Below are positions 3,388 through 32,699 of a DNA stretch of 50,805 nt, in pieces. The DNA is taken from positions 1 to 50,805 of the forward strand of contig NZ_BCTL01000046.1 in assembly GCF_001571265.1 (NCBI RefSeq), read 5' to 3'. The notes below the pieces were generated by a model, which did not search any database, was not told where the DNA came from, and saw only the letters and a program-made list of their open reading frames with translations. The position numbers and the translations under genes were made by a program. Numbering within the stretch: the first letter of the stretch is position 1; every line of letters starts with the position of its first letter. The stretch is from Cedecea neteri NBRC 105707 = ATCC 33855 (GTDB lineage: Bacteria > Pseudomonadota > Gammaproteobacteria > Enterobacterales > Enterobacteriaceae).

Positions 3388-3930
3388 TAAAAACCGCTTA
3401 CTTAATTAATACGAAATATATTAATGCCTGTAAAATTAACAACAAACAAAACGCCAAATTAAGCGGCGCTATCTGGATGAAAGGGCGAAGTGTCCCGCGA
3501 TATTACATGAATGGGTTTTGATAGTGTCCGAAGGACAGAAAAAGTATTAATTTATCCCGCCGTAAGGCGGGGAAGTGCTAAAGCAAGAAAATAGGTGAGC
3601 TTATCGGTAGTTTTCCCTGTTGCACAATTCACAGGTTAGGACATGAAATGCAATATCAAATCTAACAGATAAAATGAAAACCACTAAAAGACAAAAATAA
3701 GTAACGCGGAGAGGTCGGGGTTCTAAAGGGAGGGGTATTTTTGATACTCCGTTTGTAATTTTCATTTTTAACCTATTGTTATCTTCTTAATGATAATTTC
3801 ATGGTTTGTTTTGTAATTTTGGGGATCACTGTTGACCTGATGAGTTTATATTTAATAAAATATCTTTATTGTCTTGATAATTATCTAAAATATGGTAAAG
3901 GATAATTGTTAACAACAGTAAGGAGGTGTG

Positions 3931-22617: not shown

Positions 22618-23646
22618 TTAGTGCCAGGCGTATAGCAGCGGCTCTCCGGCAACAAAGCGCTGGAGATCGGCGGCAATCATCGCGGTGTGCTTCTGGATGC
22701 TTTCGCGGGTGGCGCCGGCGATGTGCGGCGTAATAATGACGTTATCCAGCTCGCTGATAAACGGGTGATTACGCCACAGCGGTTCCTGGTGGTAAACGTC
22801 CAGCGCCGCGCCGCCGAGTGGCCCATGGCGTAAGGCTTCGATGAGGTCGGTTTCCACAACCACGGAGGCGCGGGAGGTGTTGATTAACTTCGCGCCCGGC
22901 TTCATGCTTTGCAGCAGAGAGGCATTGACCAGGCCCTCGCTGTGCGGCCCGCTGCTCAGGTGCAGACTAACAATATCTGACTCGCGGAACAGCGCTTCCA
23001 GCGTGGTTTTATGCAGACCTGGCTCGTCGATATCTTCGGCGGCGACAAACGGATCTACCACCAAAATATTCATCCCGAAAGCGCGGGCAATACGCGCCAC
23101 GCGGCGGCCAATATTGCCGTAGCCAATCAGCCCCAGCGTTTTATTCCGTAATTCTCCGCCCTTAAAAACTTCGTACGGACTTTCCGGGCTAACGTCCCAC
23201 ACCACATCTTTGCGCAGGCCGGACTGGGTTTGCTGCTCGCTTTGGTTTTCACGGGTAAACTCCCCGCGCTTAAGGGCCGCATGCGACTGCGGAATGTGGC
23301 GCATCAGGCCGAGCATCAGGCCCAGCGTGAGTTCTGCTGCAGCATCGGCGTTGCGTCCTGGCGTGTAAAGCACGGTGATGTTACGTGCCCGAGCAGCCTG
23401 AACGTCAATGTTGACCGGGTTAGCGCGGGTGCAGGCGATAACCTTCAGGTTAGGGCAGCTGTTTATTACTTCGGCGGTAATGTCGTCATAGCTGGTAACA
23501 ATCACCCCAGCGTCGTGGGCCAGGTCGATAATCTCTGATGCCTGAAGCTTAGGTTTGCCGATGGCCCAGCCCTCGACAACCAGTTCGCCAAGCTGGCTAA
23601 AGGGTTCAAGGCTGCCTGCATACTCGGCGGTAAAGACGATTTTCAT
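22618..23646 (-). CDS. D-isomer-specific 2-hydroxyacid dehydrogenase
   Basis: 342 residues. Rossmann motif GLIGYGNIGRRVARIARAFG (about 188-207), catalytic Arg in INTSRASVVV (about 262), Glu in DVYHQEPL and His in TPHIAG (about 312) are present. It should interconvert a 2-keto acid or ketone with the (R)-2-hydroxy acid using NAD(P). The ATG overlaps the kinase stop (ATGA), so it is the third gene of the mtnB-like operon. Substrate unknown; in context it could oxidise or reduce the product released by the aldolase-type enzyme. Confidence 0.85.
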   Translation of the reverse strand: MKIVFTAEYAGSLEPFSQLGELVVEGWAIGKPKLQASEIIDLAHDAGVIVTSYDDITAEVINSCPNLKVIACTRANPVNIDVQAARARNITVLYTPGRNADAAAELTLGLMLGLMRHIPQSHAALKRGEFTRENQSEQQTQSGLRKDVVWDVSPESPYEVFKGGELRNKTLGLIGYGNIGRRVARIARAFGMNILVVDPFVAAEDIDEPGLHKTTLEALFRESDIVSLHLSSGPHSEGLVNASLLQSMKPGAKLINTSRASVVVETDLIEALRHGPLGGAALDVYHQEPLWRNHPFISELDNVIITPHIAGATRESIQKHTAMIAADLQRFVAGEPLLYAWH

Positions 23647-25139
23647 TGTGCATTATCCTGAGAGAGACTTTGTAAGGCCTGGTGCCTGGCCTGCCATACC
23701 GGCTGGAGCTGTTCGCGCAGCAGGCGGAATACCGGGAACAGTGCCCGATAGGCGGCATGGGCCTGAGGCTGGGGCAGATAGCGGGTTTGTTCGATTGCCG
23801 GATAGCGTTCCAGCGCATCAACGCTGCGGGCGGCAAGCAGCGCCGCGCCTCGGGCGCTGAGTTCGTTAAAGTGGCTGGCGATGACCGTGCGTCCGGTGCA
23901 GTCGGCGATAATTTGCAGCCAGGTGGCGGAAGCTGCTCCGCCGCCGGTGAGATACAGGTCGCCTTCGCTGGCATAGCCCGTCAGCGAATCCACAATGGCA
24001 TAGGCCAGCCCTTCAAAAACGGCGCGTTGAAGCGCCGCGCGGGACGTGTGCTGGTCAACGCCAAAAAAACCTGCGCGGGCGGTGGGGCTGTAAAACGGGG
24101 CGCGTTCGCCGTTCAGGTAAGGCTGCCAGAAAACGCCGCCGCTGCCCGGCGGAATAGCGGCAATCTCTTGTTCCAGCGCCACTAAGTCCGGCGTCAGGGA
24201 AATATGCTGCTGCAGCCAGTCGATATTTGGCGTTCCGGCCTGCATCGGGAACAGGTTAATAAAGCTGCCTCGTTCGGTATGGGTCACAAAACGGGTGCCG
24301 CTGCTGACGGTTTCTCGCCCGTGGCAAACGACGCCTGTGCAGCAGGTGGTGCCGAGAATGGTGTAAATATCGCCGTCATGAATCGCGCCACAGCCTAGCG
24401 CGGCGCTGCATACGTCCAGCGCACCTGCGGCAACCGGTGTCTCAGGCGGCAGGCCACAAAGCAGGGCGGCGGCTTCGCTTAAGCTACCTGCCTGGGCGTC
24501 AGGGCGAAGCAGGGGCGGAAAACGGTTTTTCAGAAAATCAATACCCAGAGCCTGCAGGGCGAAATCGGAAATCTCGCCGGTTGACTGGTTCAGCAGCGAA
24601 GCGCTGGTATCCGTCAGCTCAAGAGCGGCGACCTGGGTCAGGCGAAAGCGAATCCAGTCCTTGGCGAAGAAAATATAGTCGGCGGCGGCCAGGCGTTCGG
24701 GCTGATTTCGCTTGAGCCAGCAGAGCTGCAGGCTGGTGTTACAAGGCTGCAGCTGAGAGCCTGTTTCATCGAACAGGGCTTTGTCCAGATCCGGGGACTG
24801 CAGAAGTTCGTCCATCAGCGCCCGGCTGCGGGTGTCGCTCCAGAGTATGCCCGGGCCAACCGGATTACCGTTTTTGTCGCTTAGCCAGACGCCTTCGCCC
24901 TGGCCCGCCAGACCGATTGCTTTGAGTTTGCCCTGTTGGAGTGCCGGGCAGTCGGCCACTTCCCGCAGCGTGCGCACGACCGACTGCCAAAGCTGCTCCA
25001 TGTCCTGCTCGGCGTAGCCCTGAGGGGAAAGGGTTGGCGAGGTGTTTTCCGCCGCGCTGGCCACCGCATGGAAATTGCTGTCAAACAGCACGGCTTTTAC
25101 CCGCGACGTGCCGATATCAATACCCAGGAAATACTCCAT
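23643..25139 (-). CDS. FGGY-family carbohydrate kinase
   Basis: 498 residues. The actin-like ATPase start FLGIDIGTSRVKAVLFD, AEQDMEQLWQ, GILWSDTRS, GALDVCSAALG and the ATP-site signature LTGGGAASATWLQIIADCTGR near residue 400 are FGGY hallmarks; size and motifs are like L-xylulose/L-ribulose/xylulose kinases. It likely phosphorylates a ketose made available to the MtnB-like enzyme. It is the second gene of its operon, 43 bases after the mtnB-like gene. Exact sugar cannot be read from the sequence. Confidence 0.85.
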   Translation of the reverse strand: MEYFLGIDIGTSRVKAVLFDSNFHAVASAAENTSPTLSPQGYAEQDMEQLWQSVVRTLREVADCPALQQGKLKAIGLAGQGEGVWLSDKNGNPVGPGILWSDTRSRALMDELLQSPDLDKALFDETGSQLQPCNTSLQLCWLKRNQPERLAAADYIFFAKDWIRFRLTQVAALELTDTSASLLNQSTGEISDFALQALGIDFLKNRFPPLLRPDAQAGSLSEAAALLCGLPPETPVAAGALDVCSAALGCGAIHDGDIYTILGTTCCTGVVCHGRETVSSGTRFVTHTERGSFINLFPMQAGTPNIDWLQQHISLTPDLVALEQEIAAIPPGSGGVFWQPYLNGERAPFYSPTARAGFFGVDQHTSRAALQRAVFEGLAYAIVDSLTGYASEGDLYLTGGGAASATWLQIIADCTGRTVIASHFNELSARGAALLAARSVDALERYPAIEQTRYLPQPQAHAAYRALFPVFRLLREQLQPVWQARHQALQSLSQDNAQ

Positions 25140-25182
25140 ACCTCAAGCCTCACGCTAGCGAACAGAAACAGGAATACGACGG

Positions 25183-25794
25183 TTAATCACGCTCGTACAG
25201 GCGGCGCTGCATTTCGCATTCAAACAGGAATTCAAGCCCTTCGAGCTGGCGGCGCGCCTCTGCAACGTCTTTGCCCCAGCAGGTCAGGCCGTGACCGCGC
25301 AGCAGGAAACCGTAGTTTAGGGGCGTCTGTTTGGCATGCTGTTCAATGCGTTTTGCCAGCGCGTCGATGTCCTGATCGTTATCGAAGATGGCAATCGGCA
25401 CCGTGTTGAGGTGCGTCTGCTGGCCGGTAAGGGTTTTTTGCATTTCATAGCCGCTGATGTTCAGGGCAGGGCCTTTCTCAATCCGCGACAGGACGGTGGC
25501 GTTCACGGTGTGAACGTGAAGCACCACGTTTGCCTCCGGAAAGAGACGATAAACCAGCGTGTGCAGCCCGGTTTCGGCAGAAGGTTTACGCCCGGATGGG
25601 GCTTGATTAGTGGCAATGTCTACCTGAAGGAAATCCTCGCTGGTCAGGCTGCCTTTGTCGCGGCCGGATTCACTCAGCCAGCACCACTCGGCATCCTGAC
25701 GAATAGACATATTGCCGCCCGTCGCCGGAGCCCAGCCTTTAGCGCCAATCCAATGACAGGTGGTGACCAATTGCGCGAGTCTTTCTTGCCACAT
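25183..25794 (-). CDS. MtnB-like methylthioribulose-1-phosphate dehydratase / class II aldolase
   Basis: 203 residues. The sequence follows MtnB of Klebsiella closely: WIGAKGW-PATGGNMS, SESGRDKGSL, PSAETGLHTLVYR, the zinc pair HVH (about residues 97-99), NATVLSR, GYEMQKTLTGQQTHLNTVPI-IFDNDQDI and RGHGL-CWGKDVAEARR. MtnB dehydrates 5-methylthioribulose 1-phosphate in methionine salvage; relatives of this fold cleave 5-deoxy-ketose 1-phosphates to DHAP. AGGA precedes the ATG. No mtnA, mtnC, mtnD or mtnE neighbour is present, so this copy may serve a variant pathway with the adjacent kinases. Family call firm, exact reaction inferred. Confidence 0.82.
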   Translation of the reverse strand: MWQERLAQLVTTCHWIGAKGWAPATGGNMSIRQDAEWCWLSESGRDKGSLTSEDFLQVDIATNQAPSGRKPSAETGLHTLVYRLFPEANVVLHVHTVNATVLSRIEKGPALNISGYEMQKTLTGQQTHLNTVPIAIFDNDQDIDALAKRIEQHAKQTPLNYGFLLRGHGLTCWGKDVAEARRQLEGLEFLFECEMQRRLYERD

Positions 25795-25821
25795 ACGGTA
25801 TTCCTCAATGCTTTTTAGTTT

Positions 25822-25845
25822 AACTGTCTAGCCGTCTAAATGGCT
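25822..25845 (-). promoter_or_regulatory. Tandem MetJ-box-like 8-mers
   Basis: Three contiguous 8-mers read on the minus strand AGCCATTT, AGACGGCT, AGACAGTT; they match the MetJ consensus AGACGTCT at 5, 7 and 5 of 8 positions. They lie 28-51 bases upstream of the mtnB-like start, where a repressor would act. MetJ binds tandem met boxes with S-adenosylmethionine. The match is suggestive, not proof. Confidence 0.45.
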
Positions 25846-25995
25846 GTTTACATGATGCTATCATTGTGTGAACACACGGGCAACACTTGCCGGGTTATAA
25901 GATATATCGAGCAAATCAGCGGTTTTTCACCGAGTTTTCTCCTGTGACTGGGCGGTTTCGCTTTACAGTCGAAACGTCGCTTTGCATACATTGGT

Positions 25996-26019
25996 TTTGT
26001 TATGTTATAACGTAACAAA
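25996..26019. promoter_or_regulatory. Zur box upstream of folE2
   Basis: A 24-base palindrome with only one mismatched pair; its core TGTTATGTTATAACGTAACA carries the GTTAT-N3-ATAAC pattern of enterobacterial Zur operators. It ends 14 bases before the folE2 start, so bound Zur would block transcription while zinc is plentiful. The downstream gene set is what one expects for a Zur target. Confidence 0.8.
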
Positions 26020-26033
26020 TTAACGGTAAGACG

Positions 26034-26972
26034 ATGCGTGCTATGACGGTCACCTCAATGTTATGCCCTAAAACGCTGCCTGATATTCAGTCACTCAGAA
26101 GCCACGAATTCGACACGGCCCTGTCCTGGGTCGGCATGGAACAGATCGATCTTCCGGTTGAGATTGCCGGACGCCCGCTGACGGCCAAAGTTAGCGCAGG
26201 CATTAATCTGCTCAGCACGCCGGAAGCCGAGAAGGGGATCCACATGTCCCGACTTTATCTGCTGCTGGACGAGCTAACCCAGGGCGAGGTTACGCCTGCC
26301 GCGCTGCGCAATTTGCTGGGTAAATTTCTGGTTTCTCACCAGCGCAGCAGCAACCGCGCGAGCGTTGAAATTGCGGGCGAGCTGCTGCTGTCCCGCCGAT
26401 CTTTAACCTCTAATCACTTTGGCTGGAAGGCTTATCCCATCCGCGTGCAGGCAGAGCGTGGAGAAACGTTTACCGTCACGCTGCGAGTGGGGATGCCTTA
26501 TTCATCTACCTGTCCCGCATCGGCGGCGCTCAGCCGTAATCTCGCCCAGCAGCAGTTTCAGCGGGACTTTGCCGGGCGAAGCGACAACATCTCTGTTGAA
26601 GAAATGATGGCCTGGCTGGGCGAAAAGGGGATGCCGGGCACGCCCCACAGCCAGAGAAGCTGGGCATGGATTGGCTGCCAGTTGAAGCCGGATGTTGCCA
26701 CGCTGCCTTTCGAGGAGCTTATCGACCGCGGCGAGGCCGCGCTTGGAACGGCGGTGCAGACGGTGGTTAAGCGCGGCGACGAACAGGCTTTCGCCCTGGC
26801 CAACGGACAAAATTTGATGTTTTGCGAAGACGCCGCTCGCCGCCTGAACAAGGCGATGCTGGACGCGCCTTTCAGCGCCGCTTTTACCCTCCGCGTTGAG
26901 CATCAGGAAAGCCTCCATGCGCACAATGCGGTGGCTCATATTCACTGGACAGGAAATCACCATGTTGCGTAA
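26034..26972 (+). CDS. folE2: GTP cyclohydrolase I type B (FolE2)
   Basis: 312 residues, FolE2/GCYH-IB family: GMEQIDLPVEI, SAGINLLSTPEAEKGIHMSRLY, RSSNRASVEI, YPIRVQAERG, MPYSSTCPASAALS with the conserved active-site Cys (about residue 161), and a C-terminal VEHQESLHAHNAVA. It makes 7,8-dihydroneopterin triphosphate from GTP, the first step of folate and 7-deazaguanine synthesis. Unlike zinc-dependent FolE, FolE2 works with Mn or Fe and is known to be induced by zinc shortage. First gene of the operon, directly after the Zur box; GGTAAG precedes the start. Confidence 0.92.
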   Translation: MRAMTVTSMLCPKTLPDIQSLRSHEFDTALSWVGMEQIDLPVEIAGRPLTAKVSAGINLLSTPEAEKGIHMSRLYLLLDELTQGEVTPAALRNLLGKFLVSHQRSSNRASVEIAGELLLSRRSLTSNHFGWKAYPIRVQAERGETFTVTLRVGMPYSSTCPASAALSRNLAQQQFQRDFAGRSDNISVEEMMAWLGEKGMPGTPHSQRSWAWIGCQLKPDVATLPFEELIDRGEAALGTAVQTVVKRGDEQAFALANGQNLMFCEDAARRLNKAMLDAPFSAAFTLRVEHQESLHAHNAVAHIHWTGNHHVA

Positions 26973-27522
26973 AAATCCCTCCGGCCACCTGCCACAGGTC
27001 TCTCCCAAAGCGTATATCGACCCTACGGCGGTCATTTGTGGCCGGGTCATTATTCATGACTATGTGTATGTCGGGCCTTATGCGGTGATCCGCGCCGACG
27101 AACTGAACGCCGAAGGGGATATGGATCCTATCGTTATCCATTCCCATTCGAATATTCAGGACGGCGTAGTGATTCACTCTAAAAGTGGTGCCCCGGTCAC
27201 TATTGGCAGCGGCACGTCAATTGCTCACCGGGCAATTGTCCACGGCCCTTGTCGGGTCGATGAGCGCGTATTTATCGGCTTCAACAGCGTGCTGTTCAAC
27301 TGCCACGTACAAACCGGCTGCGTCATTCGCTATAACGCCGTGGTGGATGGCGTCACGCTGCCGAAGCAAACCTATATTCCGTCCACCGAACGCGTGGGGC
27401 CGGACTCTGATTTAACCCAATATTCACGCGTTGACCCTGCCTCGGTGCAGTTTTCAGAAGAGGTGGCGAACACCAACGTCAAGCTGGTGGAAGGTTACCA
27501 GCTGCTGCGCAATGAGTTCTGA
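26962..27522 (+). CDS. Gamma-class carbonic anhydrase-like protein
   Basis: 186 residues with hexapeptide-repeat left-handed beta-helix pattern (GRVIIHDYVYVGPYAVIRADE, IVIHSHSNIQDGVVIHSK, TIGSGTSIAHRAIVHG, VFIGFNSVLFNC). The metal-binding His set of gamma-carbonic anhydrases is apparent in NIQDGVVIH, SIAHRAIVHG. Longer than YrdA, nearer to Cam/CcmM-type. Starts at the ATG 11 bases inside folE2 with AGGA upstream. In Zur regulons such proteins are thought to replace zinc beta-carbonic anhydrase because they can use iron or cobalt. Confidence 0.85.
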   Translation: MLRKNPSGHLPQVSPKAYIDPTAVICGRVIIHDYVYVGPYAVIRADELNAEGDMDPIVIHSHSNIQDGVVIHSKSGAPVTIGSGTSIAHRAIVHGPCRVDERVFIGFNSVLFNCHVQTGCVIRYNAVVDGVTLPKQTYIPSTERVGPDSDLTQYSRVDPASVQFSEEVANTNVKLVEGYQLLRNEF

Positions 27523-27524
27523 GT

Positions 27525-28316
27525 ATGCATCTTTCATCCGCAGAGCCAGAGCTGAGCGTTTCCCTGCGATCGATTGCCCGTCCGCAGGGCGAGTCCTGGC
27601 CGGTAGCGATAAATTTTCAGCTGCTTAAAGGCGAGCGGCTCACGGTGATTGGGCCCAACGGTAGCGGCAAAACGTCGCTGCTGCGGGCGCTGAGTCAGGA
27701 GCTAAAGATTGAAGGGGAGATAACGCTTGCGGGCCGCCCCTTAAATAAGCTCAACCCGCTGCTGCGGGCGAAGCTCGTGGCGGTGATGTCGCAAAACGAT
27801 CTCCCTGATTTGCGCCTGTCCATCGAAGATTATGTCGCACTTGGGCGGCTGCCTTTTGCCCGGGATATGCCTGAGCCAGAACATCGCTGCATTGTCTGTG
27901 GGGCGATGAAAGAGGTGGGTGTGCTTGGGATGCGGCATAAATCGCTGGCCTGCCTGTCCGGCGGTGAACGGCAGCGGGCGATTCTGGCGCGAACGCTGGC
28001 GCAAACTTCACGGCTGCTGTTGTTGGATGAACCGACCAACCACCTTGACCTGGCGGCGCGGGAAGAACTGCTGATGCTGGTGAAAGCTCGTGGTACCACG
28101 GTTATTGCCGTCTTGCACGATCTCAACTTAATCGAAGGGTTTGCCGACAAGGTTCTTATTTTGTCTGCGGGGCAACAGCGGGCTTTTAACGTGCCTGACG
28201 CTGCCCTGAGTACCGAAACCCTTCGCCCCGTTTTCGGCCTCGACAGCTTTACCGTCGACCATCCTGGCCAACAAGGCAGACGAGTCCGTTTTTTTGAACC
28301 TTCACGCCCACGGTAA
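27525..28316 (+). CDS. FecE/BtuD-type ABC transporter ATPase
   Basis: 263 residues. Walker A GPNGSGKTSLLRAL, Q-loop region VAVMSQND, signature LSGGERQRAILARTLA, Walker B RLLLLDEPTNHLDL and the switch His in VLHDLNL are all present. It belongs to the siderophore/cobalamin importer ATPases. It follows the carbonic anhydrase stop after 2 bases and precedes its binding protein and permease, an order (ATPase, binding protein, permease) that is less common than the reverse. Confidence 0.88.
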   Translation: MHLSSAEPELSVSLRSIARPQGESWPVAINFQLLKGERLTVIGPNGSGKTSLLRALSQELKIEGEITLAGRPLNKLNPLLRAKLVAVMSQNDLPDLRLSIEDYVALGRLPFARDMPEPEHRCIVCGAMKEVGVLGMRHKSLACLSGGERQRAILARTLAQTSRLLLLDEPTNHLDLAAREELLMLVKARGTTVIAVLHDLNLIEGFADKVLILSAGQQRAFNVPDAALSTETLRPVFGLDSFTVDHPGQQGRRVRFFEPSRPR

Positions 28317-28332
28317 CTTTTCAGGGATCGTT

Positions 28333-29286
28333 ATGATGTTAAAAATCGCTACCGGCTTTTTGCTTGCTTTTACCTCCTTTACAGCGCTTGCCTCCGGCTT
28401 CCCGGTGACCATTACTAGCTGCGGCAAACCCGTGGTGTTTAACGCGGCGCCTAAGCGTGCGGTAATAAATGACCTGAACATGTCAGAAATGGCTTTCGCC
28501 CTCCATTTGCAACCGCAGATTGTGGGTCTGACGGGCATCTCAGGCTGGTACAAAATGACGCCAGAATTTAAGCAGCAAATGGGGACGATCCCTGAGCTTG
28601 CGCCCAAATATCCCTCGCTTGAAACGCTGCTGGCCGCCGAACCAGACTTCTTCTTTGCCGGCTGGAATTACGGCATGAAGGTGGGGGGCGATGTAACTCC
28701 CCAAAGCCTGGCGAAATACGGCATCAAAACATTTGTGCTCAGCGAAAGCTGCGCCATTTCCGGCGAAAGCAAAACCAAAGCGACCCTGGATCTGCTCTAT
28801 AACGATGAGCTTACGCTGGGCAAAATATTTGGTAAGGCAGAGGCTGCTCAAAAGCTGGTTGATGGCTGGAAGGCGCGGCTGGCTGCCCTCCCCAAAGCGC
28901 AGCCAGGCGCAGTGCCGCCGAAAGTCTTTGTTTATGACTCCGGGGAAGACAAGCCGTTTACTAGCGGAAAATATGCCATGCCGCAGGCCATTATCGAGGC
29001 CGCAGGTGGCAAAAACGCAATGGAAGGGCTGGACACCAGCTGGGGCACAACATCCTGGGAAAGCGTTGCGGCGACTGAGCCGGACGTGATTATCCTGCTG
29101 GATTACCAAAACGGCGGTGGGGCTGATTCGCTGCGCCTGTTCCTTGAGCGCCACCCGCTGATGAAGCTCACCCCGGCGGTTAAACAGCACCGTTACCTGA
29201 AGCTGCAGTACGCCGAATTGACGCCCGGCCCGGCAAATATCGCCGCGGTTGAGAAGCTCGCTCACGTTCTGTTCGCGGCACAGTGA
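28333..29286 (+). CDS. FecB/BtuF-type periplasmic binding protein (zinc-limitation importer)
   Basis: 317 residues. Signal peptide MMLKIATGFLLAFTSFTALA, then a class III binding fold: KRAVINDLNMSEMAFAL, YPSLETLLAAEPDFFFAGWNYG, and a second lobe with ITFEAAGGKNAMEG-like IIEAAGGKNAMEGLDTSWGTTSWESVAATEPDVIILLD pattern. Binding proteins of this fold take Fe-siderophores, heme or cobalamin. The position inside a Zur-type operon suggests a zinc or zinc-metallophore ligand, which is inference. GGGA precedes the ATG; the longer frame overlaps the ATPase gene and lacks a signal peptide. Confidence 0.82.
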   Translation: MMLKIATGFLLAFTSFTALASGFPVTITSCGKPVVFNAAPKRAVINDLNMSEMAFALHLQPQIVGLTGISGWYKMTPEFKQQMGTIPELAPKYPSLETLLAAEPDFFFAGWNYGMKVGGDVTPQSLAKYGIKTFVLSESCAISGESKTKATLDLLYNDELTLGKIFGKAEAAQKLVDGWKARLAALPKAQPGAVPPKVFVYDSGEDKPFTSGKYAMPQAIIEAAGGKNAMEGLDTSWGTTSWESVAATEPDVIILLDYQNGGGADSLRLFLERHPLMKLTPAVKQHRYLKLQYAELTPGPANIAAVEKLAHVLFAAQ

Positions 29287-30284
29287 TGTTTATAGTTTCC
29301 CGTTACTGCCGGGCCGCGTGCCTGGCCGTGTTTCTGATCGTACTTTTTGCGGCGCTTAGTCTGACTGAGGGCGCTGTCCGGCTGTGTCTGCATCAGGTGG
29401 CAAGCGCGCTGCAGCCCACTGCGACGGACGTTTCACCGATGATTCGCGGCATTGTGCTGGATATCCGGCTCCCAAGAACACTGCTGGCCCTGATGACCGG
29501 GGCGGGGCTTGCCGTGGTCGGCGCTTTGCTGCAAACCGCCACGCGCAATGAGCTGGCGGATCCTTTTTTGTTCGGGCTTTCTTCGGGCGCCTCCGCCGGT
29601 GCGGTGCTGGTTTTTACCCGTTTTGGCGACTTCTTCGGCGGCTGGACGCTGCCGGTGGCGGCCTTTTGCGGCGGGCTGCTTTCTTCCCTTGCGGTGCTGT
29701 CCTTGTTCCAACTCAAGCGCGAGCGGGGAGCGGAAACGCTGATCATCTGTGGGCTGGCCATCTCCTTTTTGTTCGGGGCATTAACCAGCTACCTGATATT
29801 TGCCGGTGACCAGCGCACCGCCAGCTCGGTATTGTTTTGGTCGCTCGGCGGCCTGGGGCTGGCTCGGTGGGATAACCTGGGATTTGCACTGGGCGGCTTG
29901 CTGCTGTTAGCCACATTTTGCCTGCTGAGATGGCGGTCGCTGGATGGATTACTCGCGGGCGATCGCACGGCATTTTCGCTCGGTATCAACGTCAACCGCC
30001 TGCGCACCGAAATCTTTCTGTGCTGCGCATTTTCTACCGCCATTTTCGTGGCGCTGACCGGCGTGATTGGCTTTGTCGGGCTGATGGTGCCGCATCTCTG
30101 CCGACATTTTTCCGCCATTAAGCATGCCAGACTGCTGCCTTTGTGCGCCCTGGCCGGGGCCTGTTTATTGTGCGGCGGCGATTTGGTTAGCCGTGTGCTG
30201 GTTGCGCCGCAGGAGCTGCCCATCGGCATTATTACCGCCGGAATTGGCGGGCTGTTTATCGTTGTGATGGTTGCCCGACGCTAG
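29286..30284 (+). CDS. FecCD/BtuC-type ABC transporter permease
   Basis: 332 residues with about ten membrane segments. FecCD landmarks are visible: DIRLPRTLLALMTGAGLAVVGALLQ near residues 57-81, ATRNELADPFLFGLSSGASAGA, and the coupling segment GVIGFVGLMVPHLCRHF near residues 255-271. The ATG overlaps the TGA of the binding-protein gene. It forms a homodimeric channel with the FecE-type ATPase. Confidence 0.88.
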   Translation: MFIVSRYCRAACLAVFLIVLFAALSLTEGAVRLCLHQVASALQPTATDVSPMIRGIVLDIRLPRTLLALMTGAGLAVVGALLQTATRNELADPFLFGLSSGASAGAVLVFTRFGDFFGGWTLPVAAFCGGLLSSLAVLSLFQLKRERGAETLIICGLAISFLFGALTSYLIFAGDQRTASSVLFWSLGGLGLARWDNLGFALGGLLLLATFCLLRWRSLDGLLAGDRTAFSLGINVNRLRTEIFLCCAFSTAIFVALTGVIGFVGLMVPHLCRHFSAIKHARLLPLCALAGACLLCGGDLVSRVLVAPQELPIGIITAGIGGLFIVVMVARR

Positions 30285-30315
30285 CGCAGCCTTTTTAAGC
30301 CGGAGAAAACGACTA

Positions 30316-31665
30316 ATGAAACCTCTGTTACTGACCAACGCGCTGATGATGAATGAGGATCGGCGTTACCAGGGCGATTTACTCATCGTGGATGGGCGAA
30401 TTGAAAAAATAGCCGCTGCGATTACGGCTCGCTCAACGTGGAGCGTGCTCGATCTTGCCGGGAAATGGCTGCTGCCGGGCATGATTGACGATCAGGTGCA
30501 TTTTCGCGAACCGGGGTTGATGCATAAGGGCACGATAGCCAGTGAGTCACGCGCGGCGGTGATGGGCGGGATCACCAGCTATATGGAAATGCCCAACGTT
30601 TCGCCGCCAACCACCACAAGACAGGCGCTGGAAGGCAAATTTCAGCGGGCATCCGCATGCTCACTGGCGAATTACAGTTTCTATTTTGGCGCCACTAACG
30701 ACAATCTTGAAGAACTTAAGGCGCTGTCAGCCGATGCGGCCTGCGGCGTGAAAGTATTTATGGGGGCCTCCACCGGCAACATGCTGGTGGATGATGAACG
30801 TATCCTGGAGGCCATTTTCCAGCATGCGCCAGGGCTGGTGGCCACGCATTGCGAAGATACGCCGACCATTAAACGTAATGAGGCGCTGTGGCGAGAGCGA
30901 TATGGGGAGCAGATCCCGGCTGCAGAACATGCGGCCATTCGCTCGGTAGAGGCCTGCCTGTTGTCTTCGTCCCGGGCGGTTGCGCTGGCTAAAAAACACG
31001 GCACGCGGCTTCATGTGCTGCATGTCACCACGGCCGATGAGCTGGCGCTGTTTGAGCCCGCGCCCACGCTTGAAGCCTTACGCAGAAAAACGATTACGGC
31101 GGAAGCCTGTATCCATCACCTCTATTTTAATCAGGATGATTACACGGCGCTGGGGCACAGGCTGAAGTGCAACCCGTCGGTGAAGGGCCAGGAACACCAG
31201 CGGGCGCTATGGCAGGCGGTTAAGGCGGGCGTGATTGATATTATTGCGACCGATCATGCGCCGCATTTACTGGCGGAAAAGCAGAATGATTATTTCTCTG
31301 CACCTTCGGGATTGCCGCTGGTGCAGCATGCGCTGCCCGCGTTGCTGGATATGTGTGCCAGAGGGATCTTTACACCTGAACTTATCGTCAGAAAAACCAG
31401 TCATGCGGTGGCCGAGCGCTTTCAGATTAAGGATCGCGGTTATATCCGGGAAGGTTACTGGGCCGATCTGGCGGTGATCAACCCGTGGAAACGAATCAGC
31501 ATTGAGAGCGGCAACATTGCCTACAAATGCGGCTGGTCACCCTTCGAAGGGCACACCTTGCAGGGCGGCGCGGTTGAAAGCACGTTGGTGAACGGGCGGC
31601 TTGTCTGGGATGGCGAGTCCGTTGCCGAGGGAATTTACGGTCATGCGCTGGCGTTTAACCGCTAA
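30316..31665 (+). CDS. Second dihydroorotase (PyrC2-type)
   Basis: 449 residues, amidohydrolase family (class I dihydroorotase/dihydropyrimidinase-like). Visible: GMIDDQVHFREPG (about residues 55-67), the carbamylated Lys in CGVKVFMGASTG, His in ATHCED and HVLHVTT, Asp in IIATDHAPH. The first metal His of the usual HxH is Gln (DDQVH), as in the DDQVHFREPG subgroup of dihydroorotases. It should convert carbamoyl-aspartate to dihydroorotate in pyrimidine synthesis. PyrC paralogues are a known Zur-controlled back-up for zinc PyrC. GGAG precedes the ATG at 30316; the frame opens earlier within the permease gene. Confidence 0.85.
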   Translation: MKPLLLTNALMMNEDRRYQGDLLIVDGRIEKIAAAITARSTWSVLDLAGKWLLPGMIDDQVHFREPGLMHKGTIASESRAAVMGGITSYMEMPNVSPPTTTRQALEGKFQRASACSLANYSFYFGATNDNLEELKALSADAACGVKVFMGASTGNMLVDDERILEAIFQHAPGLVATHCEDTPTIKRNEALWRERYGEQIPAAEHAAIRSVEACLLSSSRAVALAKKHGTRLHVLHVTTADELALFEPAPTLEALRRKTITAEACIHHLYFNQDDYTALGHRLKCNPSVKGQEHQRALWQAVKAGVIDIIATDHAPHLLAEKQNDYFSAPSGLPLVQHALPALLDMCARGIFTPELIVRKTSHAVAERFQIKDRGYIREGYWADLAVINPWKRISIESGNIAYKCGWSPFEGHTLQGGAVESTLVNGRLVWDGESVAEGIYGHALAFNR

Positions 31666-31811
31666 CGTTCGCGAGGGTTGAACAGATCTTCGATGTAATG
31701 CATTAGCTCAGACATTTGTTGCAGGATATTGGCGCTGTCCACGATCAGCGCTCCCCAGAGCACAATCAGCGCGGCAACCATTCCGGCGGCTGAATAGTAA
31801 AACAGTTTCAT
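31662..31811 (-). CDS. Small single-pass membrane protein
   Basis: 49 residues: a short N-terminus, one membrane segment (about residues 8-24, AGMVAALIVLWGALIVD) and an amphipathic, acidic C-terminal helix ending NPRER. A promoter-like CTGACA-N16-TATAAT pair (about 31840-31867) would start the mRNA downstream of the more distal ATG at 31856, which favours the ATG at 31811. Its stop overlaps the convergent dihydroorotase stop by 3 bases. Not recognised. Confidence 0.5.
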   Translation of the reverse strand: MKLFYYSAAGMVAALIVLWGALIVDSANILQQMSELMHYIEDLFNPRER

Positions 31812-31910
31812 CACAGCATCATATTGGCAGGAATTTGCCCCATTATAGCGAGACATTACGGCCTGTCAGTAAATGATGGGCAGATGCCGCCGGACATCTG
31901 CCCTGGTAAA

Positions 31911-32699
31911 CTAGCGGGCGTAGCGAGGGGCGGGTGTGCCTACACCTGCTGCATCAAACATGGCCTGCGCCGTAGTGGCATAGGTTTCCCACAGGCTGAG
32001 ATCGTGTAATGGCGGGATGGTGACCGCTTCACCGCTATCCAGCCCCGCCAGCGCAGAATCCACCAAATCATCCACTTTCATCACCGCACCTTCCGGCAGC
32101 GAGTCCACCGACACGCCAGCGCGATCCCAAATTTCCGTTGCCGTGGCCGCCGGCAGCACCGCCTGAATACGAATGCCGGTACCGGCCGCTTCGGCCTGCA
32201 GAACTTTCGTCAGGTTCAAAACATAGCCTTTTGTGCCGCTGTATACCGCGCTACCCACCCAGCTCTGTACTGCCAGAATCGACGAGATATTGATCAGTGT
32301 GCCGCTGTTCTTTTGCTGGAAATTAAGCAGGGCGGCATGGCTCAGGCGAGTTAACGCCGTGATGTTCAGCGTGATAAGTGCCTGATGCTGTTCCACGCTG
32401 GCGGCGGTAAACGCTGCGCTGTGGGCGGTGCCTGCGTTGTTAACCAGCACGCTGATGCGTGGATCTTTAAGCGCCTCCTCAACGGCAGCGATGTCCTGGT
32501 CGTTAACCAGATCGGCTTTTAGCGTAGTCACGGCTATGCCGTGGCGGGCTTCAAGCTTTGCGGCCAGATCGCGCAGGCGATCTTCGCGCCGGGCAACCAG
32601 CAGTAAATCAAAACCACGGGCCGCGAAACGATCGGCATAAACCGCACCAATACCGGAAGACGCGCCGGTAATTACCGCGACAGAACGGGAGTTAGCCAT
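31911..32699 (-). CDS. Short-chain dehydrogenase/reductase
   Basis: 262 residues. Rossmann glycine motif TGASSGIG (about 10-17), NNAG (about 87-90), Ser in NISSI and catalytic YSGTK (Tyr about 152, Lys about 156) are all present. NAD(P)-dependent oxidoreductase of unknown substrate. The ATG at 32699 follows GAGGTG; the frame extends four codons further but without a ribosome site. It is the likely target of the HxlR-type regulator encoded just upstream in the same orientation, with two operators in between. Confidence 0.85.
   Translation of the reverse strand: MANSRSVAVITGASSGIGAVYADRFAARGFDLLLVARREDRLRDLAAKLEARHGIAVTTLKADLVNDQDIAAVEEALKDPRISVLVNNAGTAHSAAFTAASVEQHQALITLNITALTRLSHAALLNFQQKNSGTLINISSILAVQSWVGSAVYSGTKGYVLNLTKVLQAEAAGTGIRIQAVLPAATATEIWDRAGVSVDSLPEGAVMKVDDLVDSALAGLDSGEAVTIPPLHDLSLWETYATTAQAMFDAAGVGTPAPRYAR

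Follow-up and report, generated by a model that had tools for sequence, protein, structure and literature searches.

The stretch of DNA analysed here (the window, 50,805 nucleotides of a Cedecea neteri contig) contains what we take, with a probability of roughly 0.86, to be a Zur-repressed zinc-starvation operon, in which six genes on one transcript would provide enzyme stand-ins together with a metal-chelate importer. When zinc is plentiful, zinc-loaded Zur is predicted to sit on a palindrome 5′ of folE2 and to block the six-gene transcript, which would be made when zinc is low. FolE2, a gamma-class carbonic anhydrase and a PyrC2-type dihydroorotase would then replace FolE, beta-carbonic anhydrase and PyrC, as judged from family knowledge and the presence of these counterparts, and a FecBCD-type ABC importer would take in a metal chelate. 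The importer appears to be a widespread Zur-linked unit, usually with an operator of its own; in the Cedecea-like lineage it lies behind folE2 and the carbonic anhydrase gene with no recognisable own operator, followed in some members by the dihydroorotase.

Gene order and the Zur-like operator

The features of the region are listed in Table 1. The original prediction described an array of six genes on one strand with overlaps or short gaps, and this is confirmed by the ORF coordinates and domain matches. All six frames are open, spanning 26034-31665 on the plus strand in the order folE2, gamma-carbonic anhydrase, ATPase, binding protein, permease and dihydroorotase, with gaps between genes of 31 bp at most. 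No sigma-70 consensus promoter was found on the plus strand of 25800-31950. Terminator-like matches numbered 12 against 8.2 (sd 3.3) expected, and all were within the operon span (10 of the 12 on the plus strand), so that a single transcript is not proved.

Table 1. Features of the putative zinc-starvation operon, with positions in the window.
Feature	Coordinates	Strand	Evidence
Zur-like operator, 24-bp palindrome TTTGTTATGTTATAACGTAACAAA	25996..26019		22/24 symmetric; top matrix score in window
folE2, GTP cyclohydrolase IB	26034..26972	+	NF010200 290.2 bits (cut-off 215); PF02649 212.1 bits
gamma-class carbonic anhydrase-like hexapeptide protein	26962..27522	+	PF00132 59.9 bits; 11-base overlap with folE2
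ABC importer ATPase	27525..28316	+	PF00005 95.9 bits; gap of 2 after carbonic anhydrase
periplasmic binding protein, Peripla_BP_2	28333..29286	+	PF01497 71.8 bits; gap of 16 after ATPase
FecCD-family permease	29286..30284	+	PF01032 274.8 bits; start overlaps binding-protein stop
second dihydroorotase, PRK09236 type, PyrC2/PyrQ-like	30316..31665	+	NF006688 684.5 bits (cut-off 535); gap of 31

The near-perfect 24-base Zur-like palindrome claimed for the region was found, symmetric at 22 of 24 positions and separated from the folE2 ATG by 14 bases. Two matrices were used to score it, and only one strand was scanned because both are symmetric. With matrix A, built from six other sites of the C. 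neteri genome, the window maximum was 36.5 bits at 25996 and the runner-up 17.1. With matrix B, for which relatives supplied 40 distinct importer-promoter sites (four same-operon loci excluded), the palindrome scored 38.3 bits across 50,782 window positions, against 9.5 for an overlapping position and 7.5 for the best non-overlapping one. The Zur-matrix scan proposed along with the prediction therefore places the operator far above background. A position at 3844 scored 17.1 bits with the own-genome matrix and 5.9 with the larger one, and was treated as background. An E. coli-type 23-bp consensus, in the form that we recall it, was set aside as non-discriminating (15 of 22 letters matched at the folE2 site and 16 at the main znu site) and the matrices were used instead. 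No second Zur-like site within 2 mismatches occurs anywhere in the window.

In the genome as a whole, 11 places match. Seven were examined and all seven lie upstream of zinc-linked-looking genes: an rpmE2-like L31 gene, folE2, a TonB receptor cluster, a second znuCBA-like set, a COG0523-like GTPase, zinT and an SPFH pair. Between 10 and 22 of the 24 positions are symmetric at these sites (zinT lowest), so not every site is a good palindrome. A full-length Zur is encoded at C24:71752 (327.3 bits, cut-off 167). Together, the operator score and the presence of the Zur gene support the Zur control that had been claimed, which is strongly predicted from the sequence.

Putative stand-ins for zinc enzymes

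FolE, PyrC and two beta-carbonic anhydrases are all encoded in the C. neteri genome, and with Zur also present a replacement under zinc starvation makes sense. FolE2 passes its family model cut-off (NF010200, 290.2 against 215). The gamma-carbonic anhydrase, aligned to CcmM (3kwc), keeps three candidate metal histidines (His72, His89 and His94 in our numbering); Cam (1thj) is likewise a match. It misses the NCBIfam carbonic anhydrase equivalog cut-offs (NF040597, 110.5 of 380; NF050158, 55.9 of 250), and hence we assign it to the general gamma class and no further. The nearest solved chain to the dihydroorotase is 2gwn. In place of the HxH metal motif of binuclear-zinc dihydroorotases it has DDQVH, with Gln60-Val-His62 found in 5/5 aligned sequences and in 2gwn, whilst Lys146, His178, His233, His236 and Asp313 are kept in 5/5; one metal histidine is lost and no more.

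The same three enzymes are found in the same order, and Zur-linked, in PA5539-PA5541 of Pseudomonas aeruginosa (folE2, PaCAgamma1 and pyrC2/pyrQ; PMC4542158, PMC13261364). According to the text available of PMC4542158, these genes respond to zinc depletion by induction, are up 93.6-, 37.6- and 37.9-fold in a znuA mutant and have a Zur site at folE2; FolE2, Cam and PyrC paralogues were also predicted to be Zur-linked by Haas 2009 (PMC2770081, available part). The original prediction likewise stated a Zur link of FolE2, PyrC paralogues and gamma-carbonic anhydrases in other proteobacteria. The portions of PMC4542158 and PMC13261364 available describe no importer between carbonic anhydrase and dihydroorotase, where three importer genes intervene here. 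The further claim, that three zinc enzymes are replaced, stands in so far as the counterparts are encoded and the triad has a precedent; it is weakened by the carbonic anhydrase, which keeps its three candidate metal histidines, and by the dihydroorotase, which loses just one. For the P. aeruginosa relative of the carbonic anhydrase, the available text of PMC13261364 has its authors suggesting that the Zur link may reflect zinc dependence.

The importer and its cargo

Matches to PF01497, PF01032 and PF00005 identify the transporter as an ABC importer of the FecBCD/BtuCDF type. The ATPase reached no cut-off among the 25 listed of the 186 NCBIfam models that it matched, the best being a heme importer ATPase model, and the permease scores fall under the BtuC, FecC and F420-0 cut-offs. 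Across 81 binding protein sequences 68 positions are invariant, including Cys30 and Cys140, with a single invariant histidine, His274; we take this protein to be of the cluster A-II type. The ZnuA family domain (PF01297) is absent from the binding protein, which matches PF01497 and nothing else, and no TonB receptor is present in the window operon. The cargo is probably a metal chelate, of zinc or cobalt.

Zinc, whether chelated by a zincophore of the cell itself or of another organism or in some other form, is a serious candidate at somewhat under even odds: the importer has Zur-type sites in 50/80 loci, and COG0523/zigA, folE2 and other zinc-linked genes adjoin it in some of them. However, the binding protein lies outside PF01297, and the genome contains no match to the nicotianamine synthase family (PF03059), a model whose coverage of bacterial enzymes is uncontrolled. 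A cell-made zincophore of the staphylopine or pseudopaline type was set aside on this result, with the same limit on the model.

Uptake of a cobalt chelate, with enzymes running on cobalt under zinc starvation, is a tentative alternative. The binding protein belongs to a chelate-binding family and has just one invariant histidine, His274, which is not the pattern expected of a ZnuA that binds bare zinc. Moreover, the Zur-regulated PA2911-PA2914 of P. aeruginosa, a TonB receptor and a FecBCD-type importer with a cluster A-II binding protein, resembles the window importer by type (PMC4542158, PMC11481552, available parts) and is reported to import pyochelin-cobalt; cobalt is also reported to reduce zinc demand (PMC11481552, available part). 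In PA2911-PA2914, however, the receptor is the first gene, whereas the window operon is receptor-less. Searches across the class returned matches in 5/369 genomes at E 1e-50 and 7/369 at E 1e-18, none recognisable as PA2911-PA2914.

Transport of an organic cofactor, cobalamin or similar, with no metal-supply role as such, is improbable. The permease and binding protein are similar to BtuC/BtuF and to the putative F420-0 transporter, but every cut-off was missed, both for BtuCDF (BtuC 191.2 of 334, BtuF 34.5 of 234, BtuD 111 of 281) and for TIGR03868/03869/03873 (168.1 of 392.4, 216.3 of 437.35 and 175.9 of 372.4).

A second Zur-site cluster lacking an ATPase

A second cluster (C1) contains genes for a TonB receptor, a binding protein, a SAM methyltransferase and a FecCD permease behind a Zur-like site, with no ATPase gene. 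Its binding protein was found in 12 of 294 sampled genomes, always within the receptor cluster, and a Zur-like site (≤1 mismatch) lies near that cluster in 11 of the 12. Directly 3′ of the cluster permease, three genomes (G170, G254 and G025) have an importer-type ATPase; the other nine (G000, G192, G064, G216, G112, G109, G087, G134 and G113) lack one there. In G216 and G109 the same strand carries, ~1 kb beyond, the ABC ATPase of a seemingly separate transporter.

Judged by its binding protein, the window-type importer is present in seven of the nine ATPase-less genomes, or eight if G064 is included on the strength of an ATPase close to the end of a contig; in G112 both the importer binding protein and the ATPase are missing. 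In G113 a stop codon falls within the ATPase match, and the receptor cluster is broken too. Compared with 32/285 other genomes, in a sample containing many reduced genomes, this gives Fisher p = 1.3e-5 (7/9) or 5e-7 (8/9), kinship ignored. The importer likewise occurs in two of the three genomes in which the cluster includes an ATPase, and G071 has the operon with the receptor cluster absent at E 1e-60. On the basis of co-occurrence, the ATPase-less cluster may borrow the ATPase of the window importer. Comparison of coupling helices did not support this idea: in that segment the two own-genus permeases are 33% identical to the one in the window, all nine from ATPase-less clusters 33-50% and the three with an ATPase 46%. 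A metal-substitution unit, in which one Zur transcript encodes an importer of a cobalt or other non-zinc chelate and enzymes that can use this metal, the importer ATPase also powering C1 and C1 supplying the missing outer-membrane step, is rather unlikely.

Importer and operon in relatives

The importer was found in 39/294 sampled genomes of the family (E up to 1e-60). On plasmids, 589 of 1326 matching records fall at 60-80% identity, and Klebsiella is the commonest host name (579/1326, any identity). A Zur-like site lies at the importer promoter in 50 of 80 named loci, representing 21/37 genus or strain labels made by hand; the rest of these loci holds 25 sites in 1,422,504 bp, a background that predicts 0.0069 per 390 bp. 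In 4 additional loci the site lies 5′ of folE2 in the same operon. In the remaining 30 of the 80 no such site lies close to the importer, and for 15 of them none was found or accounted for. With sites at the importer itself in so many loci, it looks like a recurrent member of the Zur regulon.

The six-gene order is identical in G071, L051 and L052 (= G192). The operon of Cedecea davisae, like that of one relative, stops at the permease. Since the dihydroorotase is missing from the operon in 2/4 of the closest named loci, it is an optional last gene. A chance neighbourhood, with Zur governing folE2 and the carbonic anhydrase alone and the other genes under separate promoters, is very unlikely: the two close loci without a dihydroorotase and the terminator-like matches within the span would fit it, but gene-to-gene distances that range from 11 bases of overlap up to a 31-bp gap, the absence from the window of another Zur-like site within 2 mismatches and the gene order shared by G071, L051 and L052 argue against it.

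Looser associations occur elsewhere. In Superficieibacter (G262/L095) and G134, the importer, FolE2-carbonic anhydrase (the latter 92% identical) and dihydroorotase (75%) lie within ~22 kb with several Zur-like sites. There they form separate units among COG0523-, DksA-, CysRS-, ThrRS- and HemB-like genes (named by eye), in contrast to the one operon here. Phytobacter (G096/L096) has the importer and a shortened dihydroorotase within ~7 kb, with folE2-carbonic anhydrase absent from the 19 kb seen. On Klebsiella pneumoniae plasmid NZ_CP072497.1 the ATPase, binding protein (75% identical) and permease are succeeded by zigA. The gene table of this stretch, which is incomplete, lists 15 annotated features, and folE2, carbonic anhydrase and dihydroorotase are not among them. 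A Zur-regulated cluster on pLVPK was marked by Haas 2009 (PMC2770081, available part).

Significance

The enzyme triad is already known as Zur-regulated in P. aeruginosa, and the importer found within it here makes the present case a variant. The six-gene arrangement and the wide link of the importer to zinc starvation look new, every part being of a known kind. In the literature searched, we recognised no work on this importer in either Enterobacterales or Vibrio. The operon combines replacement of zinc enzymes and import of a metal chelate in one predicted Zur transcript. It also points to a likely role in zinc starvation for a common importer on which no work was recognised. Should that importer carry cobalt, enterobacteria and vibrios in general would share a strategy that we found reported for P. 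aeruginosa alone.

Gene string and host lineage

The six-gene string is real: gene calls and domain searches bore out the order and arrangement given in the original prediction. FolE2 and the dihydroorotase both score above their NCBIfam cut-offs. The three importer genes clearly encode FecCD, Peripla_BP_2 and ABC proteins, none of which reached a substrate-specific NCBIfam cut-off among the matches listed. The carbonic anhydrase (CA) is a hexapeptide protein, closest among solved chains to CcmM; aligned with it, the protein retains the three candidate metal histidines. Contig C46, which makes up the window, belongs to a 5.2 Mb genome. We label its lineage Cedecea-like because the closest named relatives of the importer's binding protein are from Enterobacter sp. 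Cy-643, Enterobacter sp. Ag1 and strain RIT693 (95–96% identity) and from Cedecea davisae (87%). For the two minus-strand genes beside the operon (see table) no zinc link was seen.

Predicted Zur control

The operon is strongly predicted to be under Zur. In the own genome, TGTTATAACGTAACA with up to two mismatches gave 15 rows, representing 11 distinct places, and the reversed control gave 6 rows. Seven of these places were examined, and all seven precede genes that look zinc-linked; the names zinT, znuCBA, COG0523 and L31 were read from the sequences by eye, not from model matches. The second SPFH/Band 7 protein has a His-rich start, and a study of a P. aeruginosa znuA mutant reports that PA2437–PA2439 (Hfl-type) are also up (PMC4542158).

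Predicted Zur-like sites and neighbouring features
Feature	Position	Strand	Contig
Zur-like palindrome before folE2	25996–26019		C46 (window)
Methylthioribulose-1-phosphate dehydratase gene (above cut-off) adjoining sugar-kinase-like gene (by eye)	23643–25794	-	C46 (window)
Cluster of TonB receptor, binding protein, SAM methyltransferase and FecCD permease, preceded by site	L048:6892–11710		C1
Second znuCBA-like set, preceded by site	C14:8713		C14
Site before COG0523-like GTPase gene			own genome
Site before zinT			own genome
Two SPFH/Band 7 protein genes, site 47 bp before	L014:750–3724		C42
89-aa L31-type protein gene, site ~8 bp upstream	L009:3805–4074		C18

A matrix made from the six other sites of the own genome scored the folE2 site at 36.5 bits, with the next match in the window at 17.1. 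A second matrix was made from 40 distinct sites of relatives, drawn from 50 loci within L055–L130 with four same-operon loci excluded. The original prediction was to fall if a Zur matrix scored the site no better than background; as far as sequence can tell it lies above background, at 38.3 bits versus 7.5, the only higher secondary match (9.5) overlapping it.

Operon variants

The window and loci L051–L054 share the order folE2, CA, ATPase, binding protein, permease, and contain no further site within two mismatches. The dihydroorotase follows the permease in the window, L051, L052 and genome G071, and is missing from the operon in L053 and C. davisae (L054); therefore the five-gene form stands alone and the dihydroorotase is an optional last gene, gained or lost at the operon end. 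It was found in 8/294 family genomes (E up to 1e-100). In Shimwellia (L055) the importer has its own site, and folE2 follows after ~9 kb, itself preceded at ~0.5 kb by a second site. In a Superficieibacter genome and G134 the importer, FolE2-CA and dihydroorotase are separate units within one ~22 kb island. The large zinc-sparing islands L139–L142 (G262, G134) also carry two extra Fur-like regulator genes, several Zur-like sites and CysRS-, ThrRS-, HemB- and DksA-like paralogues (names by eye).

The importer across relatives

Eighty named loci that encode the binding protein, the best 80 of 392 relatives, were surveyed for sites with no more than one mismatch in the stretch between 300 bp upstream and 90 bp downstream of the ATPase ORF start. 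Such a site was present in 50/80, and in 21/37 by hand-made genus or strain label; elsewhere these loci held 25 in 1,422,504 bp. Because congeneric species do not count as independent cases, the binomial figure for this enrichment is not to be taken as a probability. The 30 misses comprise four of the window's operon type, with the site before folE2 (L051–L054), five in which a COG0523-like gene lies upstream of the importer and has the site at its start or before it (L066, L096, L097, L117, L121), and five Phyllobacterium loci plus L081 with versions carrying 2–3 mismatches. The remaining 15 have no site at the importer (L063, L075, L077, L089, L090, L099, L102, L103, L105, L111, L116, L119, L128–L130); these include all four Rhodoferax loci, and L102 is cut by a contig end. 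The binding protein occurs in 39/294 family genomes (E up to 1e-60; a few are fragments), a set partly overlapping the 80 loci. Binding proteins 60–80% identical to the window's occur in 589 plasmid records, and a Klebsiella plasmid (L155) carries the importer together with zigA.

Among 81 binding protein sequences 68 positions are invariant, including Trp72, Tyr73, Trp111, Tyr113, Trp237, Trp242, Tyr258, one His, and also Cys30 and Cys140. Arguing by family, these would fit the binding of a chelate better than that of a bare ion. A zinc chelate is a plausible, if tentative, cargo. A cobalt chelate is a somewhat less likely candidate; in its favour, one paper reports pyochelin-cobalt uptake by the Zur-controlled PA2911–PA2914 of P. 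aeruginosa (PMC11481552), a system of the same general type as the window importer.

The C1 cluster contains no ATPase gene. Clusters of its type occur in 12 genomes, 9 of which have no ATPase directly after the permease, and co-occur strongly with the window-type ATPase by a statistic that ignores kinship. A coupling-helix comparison gave no support for ATPase sharing between this cluster and the window importer. In the boldest reading, the importer's ATPase may also serve the C1 cluster.

Proposed stand-in enzymes

Because the own genome also encodes FolE, dimeric PyrC and two beta-carbonic anhydrases, every stand-in enzyme is paired, by family, with one that uses zinc. In the stand-in dihydroorotase, Gln60 takes the place of the first His in the HxH of binuclear enzymes, as in 2gwn among solved chains. 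Haas 2009 (PMC2770081) describes a Zur-linked PyrC with zinc residues missing and dihydroorotase activity shown nonetheless. Lys146, His178, His233, His236 and Asp313 are kept, and therefore the enzyme may still bind metal. A study of the gamma-CA of P. aeruginosa suggests that this enzyme depends on zinc (PMC13261364), which counts against a zinc-free role.

The enzymes and the principle are already known, from P. aeruginosa and others; what is new is the importer embedded in the operon and the wide predicted link of that importer to Zur.
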